A DNA stretch of 54,617 nt from Armatimonadota bacterium. Its GTDB lineage: Bacteria; Sysuimicrobiota; Sysuimicrobiia; Sysuimicrobiales; Humicultoraceae. Below, in pieces: positions 13,678 through 24,197 of this stretch. The notes under the pieces are model-generated. The model had not been told where the DNA came from, did no database searches, and worked only from the letters and a program-made list of their open reading frames with translations. The DNA is taken from contig JAVHMA010000024.1 in the NCBI GenBank assembly GCA_031081715.1, forward strand, positions 1-54,617, in the 5' to 3' direction. Position numbers and translations under genes: made by a program. Position 1 is the first letter of the stretch. Every line of letters begins with the position of its first letter.

Positions 13678-14436
13678 ATGACCGAGCCGCTCTACCTGCG
13701 CGACAGCTACCTGCGCGAGTTCGACGCCGCGGTCGTCGCGGTCGACGGTCGGGCCGTCGCGCTCGACCGCACCGCCTTTTATCCCGGCGGGGGCGGGCAA
13801 CCGCCCGACGCCGGCCGGCTAGCCTGGGACGGCGGCGAGGGGGGCGTCGTCGAGATGCGGCGCGAGGGCGCCGCGGTCTGGCACGTGCTCGACGTCGAGC
13901 CGCCGACCCCCGGGGCCCGGGTCCGCGGTGCCGTGGACTGGGCGCGCCGGTACGCGATCATGCGTCACCATTCCGCGCTCCACGTGCTGGTCGGTGCGGT
14001 CTACCGGCTCTACGGCGCGCTCGTGACCGGTGGGGCGATCCACCCCGACCGTGCGCGCATGGACTTCTCGCTGGAGGACCTGAGCCGGGAGCGGGTGGCG
14101 GCGATCGAGGCCGAGGCCAACCGGGCGATCGCCGCCGACCTGCGCGTGCGCGTCCGCTTCGTCTCGCGCGAGGAGTTCGAGCGGTCGGACCTGACCCGGC
14201 TCGCGCGCAACCTGGTGCCGCAGGACGTGACCGAGGTGCGCGTGGTGGAGATCGAGGGCTACGACGCGCAGGCCGACGGCGGCACGCACGTGGCGCGCAC
14301 CGGCGAGATCGGCCATCTGCGCGTCACGAAGACCGAGAACAAGGGCAAGGCGAACCGACGGTTGGAGATCGCGCTGGACCCACCTGCCGTGCCAGGGGCC
14401 GTTGGGGCCCCGAGGCCTCCGTCCAGCCCAACCTAG
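13678..14436 (+). CDS. AlaX-type alanyl-tRNA editing protein
   Basis: Free-standing editing domain that hydrolyses mischarged Ser-tRNA(Ala) or Gly-tRNA(Ala). 252 aa. Contains the AlaRS-like N-terminal barrel (DRTAFYPGGGGQPPDAG) and the zinc motif MRHHSALHVL. The second zinc motif is usually written CGGTH; here it reads ADGGTHV, with Asp where Cys is expected. The longer, N-terminally extended form corresponds to AlaX-M/L subtypes. The final 20 or so residues are Pro/Ala-rich and unconserved. Stop codon overlaps the convergent methyltransferase stop by four bases. Confidence 0.85.
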   Translation: MTEPLYLRDSYLREFDAAVVAVDGRAVALDRTAFYPGGGGQPPDAGRLAWDGGEGGVVEMRREGAAVWHVLDVEPPTPGARVRGAVDWARRYAIMRHHSALHVLVGAVYRLYGALVTGGAIHPDRARMDFSLEDLSRERVAAIEAEANRAIAADLRVRVRFVSREEFERSDLTRLARNLVPQDVTEVRVVEIEGYDAQADGGTHVARTGEIGHLRVTKTENKGKANRRLEIALDPPAVPGAVGAPRPPSSPT

Positions 14437-14921
14437 TACAGTCCCGGGATGAACCGCGCGGTCTTCGATCGGTACTCCGCGTAGTCCGGGAAGCGCTCAA
14501 GCAGGAAGCGCTCTTCTCGCGAGGCTTTCGCAGCCATGTACGCCGCGAAGACCGCCGCCAGCGCCAGGTGCAGGCCGCTGGTCTTCCACAGCGCCCACCC
14601 GGCGGCGGCCATGATGAGGCCACCGTAGATCGGGTGCCGGGCGCGCGCGTATATGCTCGACCGCACCAAGATGGCCTGCTGTCGCGGTACCGGGAACGGG
14701 CTCAGGCTCGGGCCGAGCTCCCGGATCGCCCGCCAGGCCAGCGCGGCGCCGGTCAGGCCGCACGCGGCACCGACGATCCGCCACGCCGCCGGCGCCGGCC
14801 AGGACCATCGCCACGCCGCCGGCGCCAGCGCAATGGCCGCCAGCAAGACACCCTGTCCGGCGACCCACCACTCGCCGCGCGCGCCCTTCCACCAGGGCGG
14901 CCGGCTGGCCGTCTCCTTCAC
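14433..14921 (-). CDS. Isoprenylcysteine carboxyl methyltransferase (ICMT)-family membrane protein
   Basis: 162 aa with about four hydrophobic helices and the family C-terminal signature YARARHPIYGGLIM, followed by EERFLLERFPDYAEYRSKTARFIP. The RHP-Y-G motif binds S-adenosylmethionine in ICMT/PEMT-like enzymes. Bacterial members methylate lipids or unknown small molecules, so the substrate here is open. GTG 14921 overlaps the stop of the upstream membrane gene (GTGA), and it is the third gene of the CydA-like operon. That placement may mean a role in modifying a quinone or lipid for the same complex, which is inference. Confidence 0.78.
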   Translation of the reverse strand: MKETASRPPWWKGARGEWWVAGQGVLLAAIALAPAAWRWSWPAPAAWRIVGAACGLTGAALAWRAIRELGPSLSPFPVPRQQAILVRSSIYARARHPIYGGLIMAAAGWALWKTSGLHLALAAVFAAYMAAKASREERFLLERFPDYAEYRSKTARFIPGLY

Positions 14922-16048
14922 CCTCGCGCGGCGGCAGGTCGCTGCGCCGCCCGCAGCGCCTGAACGACCATCCACGCCGCCACGGCCAGGCCCGCCACGA
15001 AGAGGACGACGAACAGGACCAGCGGACTCCACTGCACCTCGACGCGGCCCGCGGCCACGTCGAGGAAGCGCCGCAGCTCCGCGTTCTGCACGACCTGCCG
15101 GCTGACGCCGTTCAGGGCGAGCACCGCGACCTGGGCAGCGGCGGCGGCCAGCGCCATCCGTCGCTGCACCCCGCGACGCTGCGCCGCGACCAGCGCCCAG
15201 ACCAGCCCGGGGCCGAGCGCCGTGAGCGCGGTGAGGAGCACCAGCGGCCCGAACATCAGCGCCCGCACCTCGGGAATCCAGGTGCCGAAGGCGTACCACG
15301 ATCCCGCGGTCGCGAACCACCCCATGCCCACCGTATACAGCCCCAGCGCGAACCGGGCGATCCAGCGCCGGTACGCCTCGGGCTCGCGGGCCGCGAAGAA
15401 CGCCGCGTCCACGATCGCGTAGGCGGCGGTCGTTGTCAGCGCCAGGCCGAAGACCATCAGCCATCGGGGGAGGACCTGGGGATCGCCGACATTGAGCGCG
15501 GTCCCCGTGGGTGCGCCCGCCACCGCGGTACGCTCGAGAATCCCCGGCCAGGCCTCGACGTTGACCATCAGCGTGAACGCGTGGCTGAAGATGAAGCCCA
15601 TGACGACGAACAGCACGGCGGCCGTCCAGCCCGCCGCCGCGTGCAGCGGCCGGAGCCGGCCACCCCGCAGCCCCACGGCGTACACGTAGACGCCGTAGTA
15701 GGCCACGACCAGCAGGCCCACGATCGAGAACCAGAACCAGCCCATCAGGATCGTCGCCGGGTAGAAGACGCGGTGGTAGGCCACCTGCGTGAACAGGAGC
15801 GGGACGATGCCGAAGTTGATGCCGAGCGCGATGAGGATCGGCATCTGGGACATCAGCCGGTCCGAGAGGCGTCGCGCGTGCTCGCCACCCCACCGGCGCA
15901 GCAGCAGCGCGACCAGGATGCCGGCGAACCACAGGTTCATCGGGATCATGTGCAGCACGAAGCCGAGCACCTTCAGTCCCGCCATGAACCAGTAGGGGGC
16001 CGGATAGCCGAGCGGCGAGGGCGGGCCGATCAGGCTGGACGGATCCAT
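14918..16048 (-). CDS. Polytopic membrane partner of the CydA-like cytochrome
   Basis: 376 aa with roughly nine transmembrane helices. The N-terminal part reads [21 protein letters not shown], then [20 protein letters not shown] and [20 protein letters not shown]. The spacing of the first His and of the FG turn recalls the first helices of CydA itself. There is no Glu pair, no CxxCH and no recognisable CydB pattern, so it could be a degenerate paralogue serving as second subunit. ATG 16048 has AGGAG at good spacing (a GTG one codon earlier is possible). The gap to the upstream cytochrome gene is about 16 bp. Confidence 0.6.
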
Positions 16049-16064
16049 CACGGTCTCCTGTGCG

Positions 16065-17438
16065 CTACCGCCGGGCGGGCTCCATGCCGCCCGGCCGGGG
16101 GAAGGCGATCGACGTCAGGTAGCGCGCGAGCAGGTCGGCCTCCTCGGGCGTACCGGTCCACGGCGGCATGAAGAACGTGGACTCGTCCAGGTGGTCGAGG
16201 ACGCGCCGGATCAGCTCCGGCGACCAGCCGCGCATGAGATGGCCGACCGCCGAGTAGCCCACCTGCGCGGCGTGGCAGTTGTTGCACTGATACTGGAAGA
16301 TGACCCGGCCCAAAAACCGCTGGTCCTCCTCGGGAAGGCGCAGCAGCGCGGCCTCGTCGATCTCCCGCCCGCGCATCGCCTGCGGGTAGCGCGCGGCCAC
16401 CAACGCCCGCGTCCAGGTGCCGGTCTCGAGGAACCCGCGGCGTTGCGCGTCGGCGATCTCGTCCACCCTGAGCTGGTTGCCCATCACCACGTTGTAGATG
16501 ATGTAGGGCTTGCGGACCGCCTCGCGGATGAACTCGCCGGTCGAGAACGCGGCCAACCCGGCGACGAACAGGAGGATGGCGAATCCCGGCGTCAGCCAGC
16601 CCGGGTTGCGGTACGGCCCGAGGTAGAGCATCACGAACACAGCGATCGTGACCGCGAAGATGAGCACCATCATGACGTTCAGCGCCGCCGCCGCCGCCAG
16701 GGCGGCCCGGGCCGACTCGGGCAGGAAGGCGTACCACCCGATCCCGCCCAGCACCACCAGCACTGCGCCGAGCAGCGCCGGCCGCGCCGAGCGCGACGCG
16801 ATCAGGTTGCGCAGCGCCGGGTCTTTGACCTTGATCGAGGCGTGCAGGTAGACGTACAGCGAGGCCAGCAGGAACGAGCCGCCGGTGCGCGCGAGCACCT
16901 GGGGCACGAACTGCGGGTTGAGGAACCCGACCCAGAACGTTCGGCGCTCGGGCCAGGCGCCCGGGTTGAGCATGAACGCGGTGATGCCCGTGATGAGCAC
17001 CAGGCTCATCCATGCCGAGGCCGCGTAGATCCAGCCCACGGTCACGTGGGTCCGCTGCGGCAGCCGGCCCCAGAAGTAGTAGAAGATGAACGCCGAGACG
17101 ATCTCCAGGACGAAGAAGACGTACTCCATCGCCCAGCCGAAGACGAAGGTCTGGATCAGGACCTCGGTGGCCAGCGGCGAGGCCAGGCCGATCGTCCACC
17201 AGATGCCGACGCCGGTGATGGCGCCGAAGACGACCGTGACGAGGATGAAGAACCAGGCGTGGCCGCGCAGGTACTCCAGGTAGGCCTTGTGCTTGACGCG
17301 GTACGCGTACTGGGTTTCGAGCGCGAGGAACAGCCCACCGCCCACGGCGTAGTGCGCCACGAGCACGTGCACCACCGCCACCGCGGCGATGAGCATGGGC
17401 GCGGTCAGGAACGGGACGTACCACCAGGGGTAGTGCAC
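16065..17438 (-). CDS. Cytochrome bd-superfamily subunit I fused to cytochrome c
   Basis: 457 aa. Residues 1-310 carry about eight helices aligned with CydA. His24 ([14 protein letters not shown]) matches the E. coli His19 haem ligand. Glu105/Glu112 lie in the helix that holds E99/E107, though spaced 7 rather than 8. EAVRKPY (306-312) parallels the EYGRQPW motif, keeping Glu and Arg. The E. coli His186 region reads [11 protein letters not shown] with no His, and no Q-loop is visible. A soluble C-terminal domain has CNNCH (385-389) and a Met ligand candidate at 424 (FFMPPW). Loss of the quinol site plus a haem c suggests electron input from a cytochrome c-like donor. GTG 17438 has GGAGG upstream. 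Confidence 0.8.
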
Positions 17439-22016: not shown

Positions 22017-23138
22017 ATGAGCCGCCTGCGCATCGGCGTCCTCACGGGCGGCGGCGACTGCCCGGGTCTGAACGCGGTCATCCGGGCCGTGGTGCTCTCC
22101 GCCCACGGCGGGCTCGGGTGGGAGGTCCTGGGCGTTCAGGACGGGTTCGACGGCCTCCTGCACGACCGCGCGCGGGCGCTGGGCCGCGAGGACGTCCGCG
22201 GCATCCTCACGCTGGGCGGCACGATCCTGGGCACCTCGAACCGCGGCAACCCGTTCGCATGGCCCGTGGTCCGCAACGGCCGGACCGAGGTGGTCGACGC
22301 CTCGGGCGAGGTGATCGAGCGCATCCGGGCCCTGGCGCTCGATGCGCTCATCGTGATCGGCGGCGACGGCACGCTGCGCATCGGCGAGCGGCTCAGCCAG
22401 ATGGGCGCGCCGATCGTGGGCATCCCCAAGACCATCGACAACGACATCTCCGCGACCGACATCACGTTCGGCTTCGACACCGCGCGGGTCACCGCGACCG
22501 AGGCGATCGACAAGCTCCACTCCACGGCGGAGAGTCACCACCGCGTCATGGTGGTGGAGACGATGGGCCGCAACGCCGGGTGGATCGCGCTAGAGTCCGG
22601 GATCGCCGGCGGGGCGAACTCGGTGCTCATTCCCGAGATCCCCTACCGCCTGGAGGTGGTGGTCGAGACCATCGAGGCGCGCGCCACCCGCGGCCGACCC
22701 TTCTCGATCGTGGTGGTGGCCGAGGGCGCGCACCCCGTGGGCGGCACCCAGGTCTACCGCGAGCCCGGCGGCCCCGGCCGGCTGCCGCGCCTGGGCGGCA
22801 TCGGGCAGCAGGTGGCCGACGCCCTGGCCGAGGCCACCGGCCGCGAGACCCGGTGCACGGTGCTCGGGCACCTGCAGCGCGGCGGGACGCCCACGCCGTT
22901 CGACCGGCTGCTCGCCACGCGGTTCGGCGTGCGCGCGGTGGAGTGCGTGGCGGCGGGCCGGCTGGGGACGATGGTGGCGTTGCGGGGCCCGTCGGTCATC
23001 GACGTGCCGCTCGCGGACGCGGTCGCCGAACCGAAGCGCGTGCCGCCCGACGGCGAGCTGGTCCGGGCGGCGCGGGAGCTGGGGATCTCGATGGGGGATG
23101 TCGCCGGGCCGGCAGACCCCGCGGCGGGCTTGCTATGA
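22017..23138 (+). CDS. 6-phosphofructokinase, predicted ATP-type (Gly/Lys signature)
   Basis: 373 aa, PfkA fold. N-terminal GVLTGGGDCPGLNAVIR; phosphoryl-donor loop GGDGT with Gly118 at the position equal to E. coli Gly104; catalytic PKTIDND with Lys138 where E. coli has Gly124; GRNAGWIAL and HLQRGGTPTPFD follow. Gly at the 104-equivalent position allows ATP, whereas PPi enzymes carry Asp there. The Gly/Lys combination occurs in ATP-dependent group III-type PFKs. It includes an insertion around 245-260 (GGTQVYREPGGPGRLPR). ATG 22017 lies 8 bp after the pckA stop. Confidence 0.88.
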   Translation: MSRLRIGVLTGGGDCPGLNAVIRAVVLSAHGGLGWEVLGVQDGFDGLLHDRARALGREDVRGILTLGGTILGTSNRGNPFAWPVVRNGRTEVVDASGEVIERIRALALDALIVIGGDGTLRIGERLSQMGAPIVGIPKTIDNDISATDITFGFDTARVTATEAIDKLHSTAESHHRVMVVETMGRNAGWIALESGIAGGANSVLIPEIPYRLEVVVETIEARATRGRPFSIVVVAEGAHPVGGTQVYREPGGPGRLPRLGGIGQQVADALAEATGRETRCTVLGHLQRGGTPTPFDRLLATRFGVRAVECVAAGRLGTMVALRGPSVIDVPLADAVAEPKRVPPDGELVRAARELGISMGDVAGPADPAAGLL

Positions 23139-23171
23139 TCGCTGGTGGTGGGGGCGTTGGAGGTGGCACCT

Positions 23172-24197
23172 GTGCGTCTCGCGGTGTTGACCGGTGGTGG
23201 TGACGCGCCAGGCCTGAACGCGGCGATCCGGGCCGTCGTCCGCCGCGCGCTTGACGGCAACCACGAGGTCATCGGCCTGCGCAACGGCTGGCTGGGACTG
23301 CTCAACGGCGACGTCGTCCCGTTGACCCGCGACAGCGTCTCGGGCATCCTGCCGCGGGGCGGGACGATTCTCGGCACGTCGCGCACCAACCCGTTCAAGG
23401 CGGCCGACGGCGGGCCGCGGATGCTGGAGACCATTGCGCGCCTGGGCATCGACGCGATCGTCGCCATCGGCGGGGACGATACCCTGAGCGTAGCCCTCAA
23501 GCTCCACGCCATGGGGGTCCGCGTGGTCGGGATTCCCAAGACGATGGACAACGACGTGCCGGGGACCGACTACACCATCGGGTTCGACACCGCGGTCAAC
23601 GTGGTGATGGAGGCATGCGACCGGCTGCACACGACGGCCGAGGCCCACCACCGCGTCATGATCGTCGAGGTCATGGGTCGGGACGCCGGATGGGTGGCCG
23701 GCATCGGCGGGCTGGCCGGCGGGGCGGACGTCATCCTGGTGCCCGAGGTTCCGTTCACCATCGAGGACGTCTGCCAGATCGTGCGGCGACGCCACGAACG
23801 GGGCCGGACGTTCAGCATCATCGTGGTCGCCGAGGGCGCCAAGCCTGCCGACTTCGGGATGCCGATCACCCAGGACGCGCGCGTGGACGAGTTCGGACAC
23901 GTCCGGCTGGGCGGGGTCGGGGCCTTGCTCGCGCGCGAGGTCGAGGCGCGAACTGGCCACGAGACACGTGTGACGGTGCTCGGGCACCTGCAGCGCGGCG
24001 GGTCACCGACGGTCTTCGACCGGGTGCTCGCGACCCGGCTCGGCGTGGCCGCGGTGGAGGCCCTGGAGGCCGGGAAGGACGGCGTGATGGTGGCCGTCCA
24101 GGGGACGAAGATCGTCACGGTGAGCCTGCAGGAGGCCCTGGCGGGGACGAACCGGCTGGATTTGCAGCTCTACCAGCTCTCGCGGCTGTTCCACTAG
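23172..24197 (+). CDS. Phosphofructokinase, predicted pyrophosphate-type (Asp/Lys signature)
   Basis: 341 aa, homologous to the preceding gene. Donor loop GGDDT places Asp103 at the E. coli Gly104 position, and PKTMDND has Lys123. Asp/Lys is the diagnostic pair of PPi-dependent PFK, which works reversibly and therefore can serve gluconeogenesis. Other motifs: LTGGGDAPGLNAAIR, EVMGRDAGWVA and HLQRGGSPTVFD. GTG 23172 has GGAGGTGG five bases upstream, so I reject the GTG codons further upstream. It ends 16 bp before the convergent ABC-2 permease gene. Confidence 0.87.
   Translation: MRLAVLTGGGDAPGLNAAIRAVVRRALDGNHEVIGLRNGWLGLLNGDVVPLTRDSVSGILPRGGTILGTSRTNPFKAADGGPRMLETIARLGIDAIVAIGGDDTLSVALKLHAMGVRVVGIPKTMDNDVPGTDYTIGFDTAVNVVMEACDRLHTTAEAHHRVMIVEVMGRDAGWVAGIGGLAGGADVILVPEVPFTIEDVCQIVRRRHERGRTFSIIVVAEGAKPADFGMPITQDARVDEFGHVRLGGVGALLAREVEARTGHETRVTVLGHLQRGGSPTVFDRVLATRLGVAAVEALEAGKDGVMVAVQGTKIVTVSLQEALAGTNRLDLQLYQLSRLFH

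Follow-up and report, generated by a model that had tools for sequence, protein, structure and literature searches.

A CydB-less gene pair of the cytochrome bd superfamily, probably a cytochrome c:O2 oxidoreductase of the OR-C kind

Introduction

What does a CydA-like protein do when it lacks the quinol site and carries its own cytochrome c domain, and with which partner does it work? The question is raised by a gene in the window, by which we mean the whole stretch of 54,617 nucleotides analysed here (contig JAVHMA010000024.1 of assembly GCA_031081715.1, from an Armatimonadota bacterium). The bd superfamily has been divided into qOR, OR-C, and OR-N, and these groups are named in recent papers (PMC10839748, PMC13189123, PMC11707229). 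In the papers searched, OR-C is described by name only. Murali, Gennis and Hemp are said to have described OR-C in 2021 as the families that contain a c-type haem and lack the quinol site. The gene (hereafter gene A) and the gene that follows it (gene B) probably encode a two-subunit, CydB-free oxidoreductase of the OR-C kind that passes electrons from cytochrome c to O2; in this reading the donor and the acceptor are deduced from residues and context.

Identification of the catalytic subunit

Gene A lies on the minus strand (17438 to 16065) and encodes a protein of 457 amino acids from a GTG start codon, which a GGAGG ribosome-binding site precedes by 7 nt. The original prediction had the coordinates 16065-17438 exactly right and left the strand unstated. 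The plus-strand reading of the same interval was rejected, as it is a mere open frame in GC-rich DNA and shows no evidence of a gene. Pfam assigns residues 16-229 to Cyt_bd_oxida_I (PF01654, 1.1e-13) and residues 377-441 to Cytochrome_CBB3 (PF13442, 2.8e-7), a class-I cytochrome c domain, and no NCBIfam family scored above its cut-off for gene A.

We aligned 50 homologues of A, which come from about ten phyla and are 48-75% identical. His24 (codon at 17367-17369; this and all following codons are on the minus strand) corresponds to His19 of E. coli CydA, the helix-1 ligand of the high-spin haem, and Glu105 (17124-17126) and Glu112 (17103-17105) correspond to Glu99 and Glu107. In the segment E306-A-V-R-K-P (16506-16523), Glu306 aligns with Glu445 of E. 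coli CydA and R309-K310-P311 with the RQP of the GRQPW motif. The positions invariant in all 50 proteins include His24, Glu105, Glu112, Arg184, His199, Glu302, Arg305, Glu306, Arg309, Lys310, Pro311, Cys385, Cys388, His389, and Met424. The domain at residues 377-441 (16116-16310) contains the covalent haem-c motif C385-N-N-C-H389 (16272-16286) and Met424 (16167-16169), which, as in class-I cytochromes c, is the probable distal haem-c ligand.

The site of haem b558 is altered. Ala183 occupies the position of the E. coli b558 ligand His186 and is followed by the family-invariant Arg184 (both codons at 16887-16892); no histidine occurs at this position in any row of the family that we examined. 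The stretch between TM6 and TM7, where a Q-loop would be expected, consists of 15 residues in 50 of the 50 rows. The original prediction had described a protein that keeps the helix-1 His, two Glu of the haem helix and an EAVRKPY motif (E306-A-V-R-K-P-Y), that has lost the His186 equivalent and the Q-loop, and that carries an appended CNNCH haem-c domain, and the alignments bear out this description throughout. It had also named, as grounds for abandoning it, a complete quinol site in another part of the protein or a structural alignment without a CydA core. No such quinol site was found in A from the alignments and the length of the TM6-TM7 stretch, and the core was recovered by the PDB profile search, hhalign, and Foldseek, as detailed below.

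Overall fold and membrane topology

A profile of the A family matched Geobacillus CydA (PDB 5doq) at 9.5e-10, in an alignment that takes in the region of the His186 position, and hhalign aligned A with canonical CydA at 6e-12; both values lie well beyond a chance level of similarity. The profile was required for the PDB match because a direct single-sequence phmmer search of A against the PDB matched only one cytochrome c and no bd chain. The AlphaFold model of A is haem-free and shows eight long membrane helices ahead of the cytochrome c domain, around which its confidence is only moderate (block pLDDT 76-95). Its first 19 Foldseek matches are all bd-oxidase chains, and the best TM scores by target are 0.68-0.70, for chains A and D of 9r2g.

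Lys and Arg residues are distributed unevenly over the loops of the A family, with a mean of 10.2 in loops 1, 3, 5, and 7 versus 1.9 in loops 2, 4, and 6. According to the positive-inside rule, both termini of A are therefore predicted to be outside the cytoplasm, which for the N-terminus is the same side as in canonical CydA. Because A lacks helix 9 of CydA, the chain past the Glu445 motif should end outside, where the haem-c domain sits. By analogy with the established topology of bd oxidases, the C-terminus would fall near the haem positions of the known structures.

Partner subunit

Gene B (14918-16051, minus strand; 377 amino acids) starts about 13-16 bases downstream of the stop codon of A. 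The original prediction missed this second subunit. B has no match in Pfam or NCBIfam. A comparison of the A and B profiles of the window's family alone gave a weak alignment (1.9e-5 over 125 columns). When the sister clades described below were added, hhalign aligned A and B at 2.5e-7 with 93% probability, over 292 columns in one run, and placed His34 of B (codon at 15950-15952) on His24 of A. This His34, the equivalent of His19 in E. coli CydA, is kept by every one of the 44 aligned B proteins and by 22 of 22 rows of a wider set. The B proteins of the two-haem-c clade aligned with canonical CydA at 8e-5, with the TM1 His on His19 and an R-x-x-H motif on His186. A profile of B gave no match in the PDB, so a fold comparison was required: the top 15 Foldseek matches of the B model (pLDDT 95) are all bd chains, and the PDB matches include CydA and CydB chains. 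Taken together, the A-B profile alignment, the alignment of sister-clade B with CydA, and the fold of B indicate that B is a degenerate CydA paralogue (CydA'-like).

Met199 of B (15455-15457) aligns with the His186 position, where the B proteins of the window's family have Met (30/44) or Leu (12/44) and the partners in the two-haem-c sister clade have His. One could imagine that the haem sites of an ancestral CydA were split between the two subunits, with A keeping the di-haem O2 site and gaining haem c, and B keeping the His19-type site (His34) plus, in the sister clades, a His186-type b558 site. We put this forward as a tentative suggestion with a modest chance of being right.

A and B could conceivably still form a quinol oxidase, using a new site in B or at the A-B interface, for example, with the haem-c domain as an extra relay or sensor. 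Archaeal CydAA', which is likewise built of two CydA paralogues, reportedly oxidises quinol according to Murali et al. (2021). In mycobacterial bd, quinol has an alternative site close to b595. E. coli CydB holds a quinone where CydA has a haem, so B could do the same (PMC8951039). However, none of the homologues examined has kept the Q-loop or His186, every one of the 50 retains the haem-c ligands, and 24 of 27 hosts carry a cytochrome b complex able to feed a cytochrome c pool. We therefore regard quinol oxidation by A-B as unlikely and prefer cytochrome c as the donor.

Distribution and phylogeny

A scan of GTDB genomes yielded 61 loci with A homologues, 44-75% identical over full-length matches. 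The records name Acidobacteriota, Planctomycetota, Chloroflexota, Bacteroidota, Kryptoniota, Bipolaricaulota, Zixibacteria, Armatimonadota, Sumerlaeota, and Fischerbacteria. A near full-length B homologue was extracted downstream of A in 46 of the 61 loci; those that did not yield one are mostly at contig edges or in diverged gut Planctomycetes.

In the CydA-superfamily tree built here, a check that the original prediction had proposed, the window's family forms its own clade of 56 rows (support 99/99) apart from quinol-type CydA. Within the window's own phylum, A is found in only 5 of 43 genomes, all of the same family as the window. The five proteins do not form one branch, and members of distant phyla are intermixed in the tree. 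This sparse and scattered occurrence, together with the mixing of distant phyla, makes horizontal spread likely.

Other groups in the tree are a two-haem-c clade (L107-L119, L122, L133, L134), a CQRCH clade (L111, L112, L121, L124), and a further haem-c clade without a detectable partner (L105, L106). The deep branching order is insecure because the inner branches are long. The two-haem-c and CQRCH clades have the active site, the fused haem c, and the B-type partner in common with the window's family. The two-haem-c clade differs from the window's A in having two haem-c motifs, and its partner has His at the His186 position, whereas B of the window's family has Met or Leu. In L113, L109, L110, and their relatives, B keeps the His186-aligned His and the catalytic subunit does not have it.

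Two loci from genomes of the Zixibacteria phylum (L130:1809-2957 and L132:2590-3729) contain a natural A/B chimera with neither a haem-c motif nor a partner gene. It joins eight helices of A type (1-8), which share about 50% identity with two-haem-c A and have lost the Glu99 position, to a B-type C-terminal helix, and looks like a deletion fusion of adjoining A and B genes. The further haem-c clade is represented by a CydA-like gene that stands alone and includes a haem-c domain (L105:2353-3627 and L106:2926-4185); this gene keeps the His186 equivalent and has Leu in place of Glu107. Neither a B partner nor CydB was seen beside it.

Gene neighbourhood

In the window, a third gene on the minus strand (14433-14921), encoding a PEMT/ICMT-type membrane methyltransferase, overlaps the stop codon of B. 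It was considered as a third subunit and rejected. No homologue of it occurs near A-B in the 61 loci, which makes it an improbable component of the enzyme. Apart from the constant A-B pair, the neighbourhoods vary across the loci. A role for recurrent neighbours was likewise rejected, as the recurrence of pyruvate:ferredoxin oxidoreductase (POR)/DHO_dh genes, ABC-2 permeases, and RND pumps is confined to single lineages or small groups.

Several features of the surroundings are recorded here as observations. In some loci of Acidobacteria and Planctomycetes (L005:780-4859, L008:4830-5846, L020, L022, L026, L050, and L056), POR and DHO_dh-family genes are found repeatedly upstream of A-B. In three loci of one genus of the window's own family (L125, L126, and L127), two genes lie directly upstream of A-B, at least one of which is an ABC-2 type permease by Pfam; this gene pair is absent from the window. 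Downstream of a PEPCK gene, the window contains tandem genes at 22118-23203 and 23145-24197 that resemble 6-phosphofructokinases, a likeness read solely from the GGGD motifs at their N-termini.

The neighbourhoods are relevant to a non-respiratory role, in which A-B would clear O2, peroxide, or NO and shield oxygen-sensitive enzymes. Such a role would suit the POR-type gene found nearby in six loci and the DHO_dh gene found in five, as well as the gut or sediment origin of some host lineages, and canonical bd oxidases show side activities of this sort (PMC10839748). Against it, only the A-B pair is constant while the neighbourhoods change, and in several genomes A-B is the sole recognised oxidase. 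We consider a protective role unlikely. It would, moreover, still run via O2 reduction and thus concerns the role of A-B more than its mechanism.

Respiratory context of the host genomes

In the host genome, which measures 2.98 Mb and is 97% complete, there is no second CydA-family gene and no CydB, for which PF02322 gave no match. The genome has one haem-copper oxidase gene adjoining COX2, whose CuA motif was read from the sequence, and two cytochrome b genes, near which a di-haem cytochrome c and CcmF are encoded. These genes imply that the host has both a pool of cytochrome c and the apparatus for attaching haem c. At the cytochrome b locus (L143:2065-3222), one cytochrome b is fused to a ferredoxin-like 4Fe-4S domain and adjoins the second cytochrome b and the di-haem cytochrome c, an arrangement that differs from a standard bc1 operon.

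Cytochrome b is present in 24 of the 27 A-bearing genomes. Seven of the 27 gave neither a haem-copper oxidase match nor another CydA-family gene: G030, G031, and G033 from the window's own family, and G009, G020, G021, and G023. G030 and G033 are 96% and 95% complete, respectively. In these seven genomes, A-B is the only terminal oxidase recognised by the searches for haem-copper oxidases and CydA-family genes. As all of this rests on draft MAGs, the lack of a haem-copper oxidase could reflect a gap in the assembly.

Comparison with known families of the bd superfamily

Canonical CydAB (qOR; E. coli and Geobacillus 5doq) has in common with A the helix-1 His, both helix-3 Glu residues, Glu445, a (G)RQPW-like motif, and the fold. 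In contrast, A-B lacks the b558 ligand His186, the Q-loop, helix 9, and CydB, and has haem c instead. OR-C is characterised by a CydA core with the di-haem site, the lack of a quinol site, and a c-type haem domain, all of which apply to A. No feature that distinguishes A-B from OR-C was found in a comparison with this description, and A is thus assigned as a further OR-C-type protein rather than a new kind. The haem-c fusion, probably part of the OR-C definition, consequently adds no novelty beyond OR-C. The original prediction suggested that A resembles a published bd family that lacks the quinol site and that it carries its own domain for electron entry, which agrees with this assignment.

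The OR-N/CydAA' proteins of Nitrospira, Nitrospina, and archaea resemble A-B in having a CydA core, a missing or altered quinol site, and a partner that is a CydA paralogue. The CydAA' architecture is also seen in A-B, where hhalign and the fold identify the partner as such a paralogue. OR-N/CydAA' bd-like oxidases are not known to have a fused haem-c domain. The presence of this domain in A thus sets it apart from OR-N. For the Nitrospina bd-like protein, 14 helices are predicted, three of which replace the Q-loop (PMC3578206), whereas A has eight helices and a short TM6-TM7 loop.

For these related bd-like proteins without a quinol site, a reversed reaction or a quinone-linked device for reverse electron transport was once proposed (PMC3578206), and the same could be imagined for A-B. 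No quinone site is recognisable, however, and the O2-site residues His24, Glu105, Glu112, and Glu306, for which a pure cytochrome c:quinone device would have no use, are invariant. We consider such a reversed function very improbable.

Proposed mechanism

The retained residues, the losses, the fusion, the A-B paralogy, the conserved pairing, and the genomic context can all be read at the level of sequence. On this basis, A would retain the di-haem O2-reducing site of CydA, formed by His24, Glu105, Glu112, and Glu306, with the high-spin haems being either b/d or b/b. With haem b558, the Q-loop, and helix 9 gone, its chain would leave the membrane past helix 8 into the periplasm. There, the mono-haem cytochrome c domain (CNNCH/Met424) would be reduced by another cytochrome c, either soluble or bound in a complex, and pass the electrons from haem c to the di-haem site and on to O2. 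The full route would run from quinol through the cytochrome b complex and cytochrome c to haem c of A, the di-haem site, and O2. B, as a degenerate CydA paralogue, would stand in the place of CydB. We infer that A and B assemble as a heterodimer, that cytochrome c is the donor and O2 the acceptor, and that the pair generates proton motive force.

Biological significance

A-B belongs to a recognised but little-studied branch of the bd superfamily. To our knowledge, there is no biochemistry for the haem-c branch, this protein included. The bd-superfamily structures matched by A and B in Foldseek are all bd oxidases with a CydB-type second subunit. A-B represents a compact two-gene version that occurs in about ten phyla and is the sole terminal oxidase found in some near-complete genomes. 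It bears on whether cytochrome c can drive bd-type O2 reduction and on the role of a CydA-derived partner that replaces CydB. If the haem sites were indeed split between the subunits, B would hold a further haem, the wiring would be unlike that of any characterised bd oxidase, and there would possibly be a second electron route or coupling site. Surveys seeking only CydAB or haem-copper oxidases would label some A-B hosts as anaerobic.
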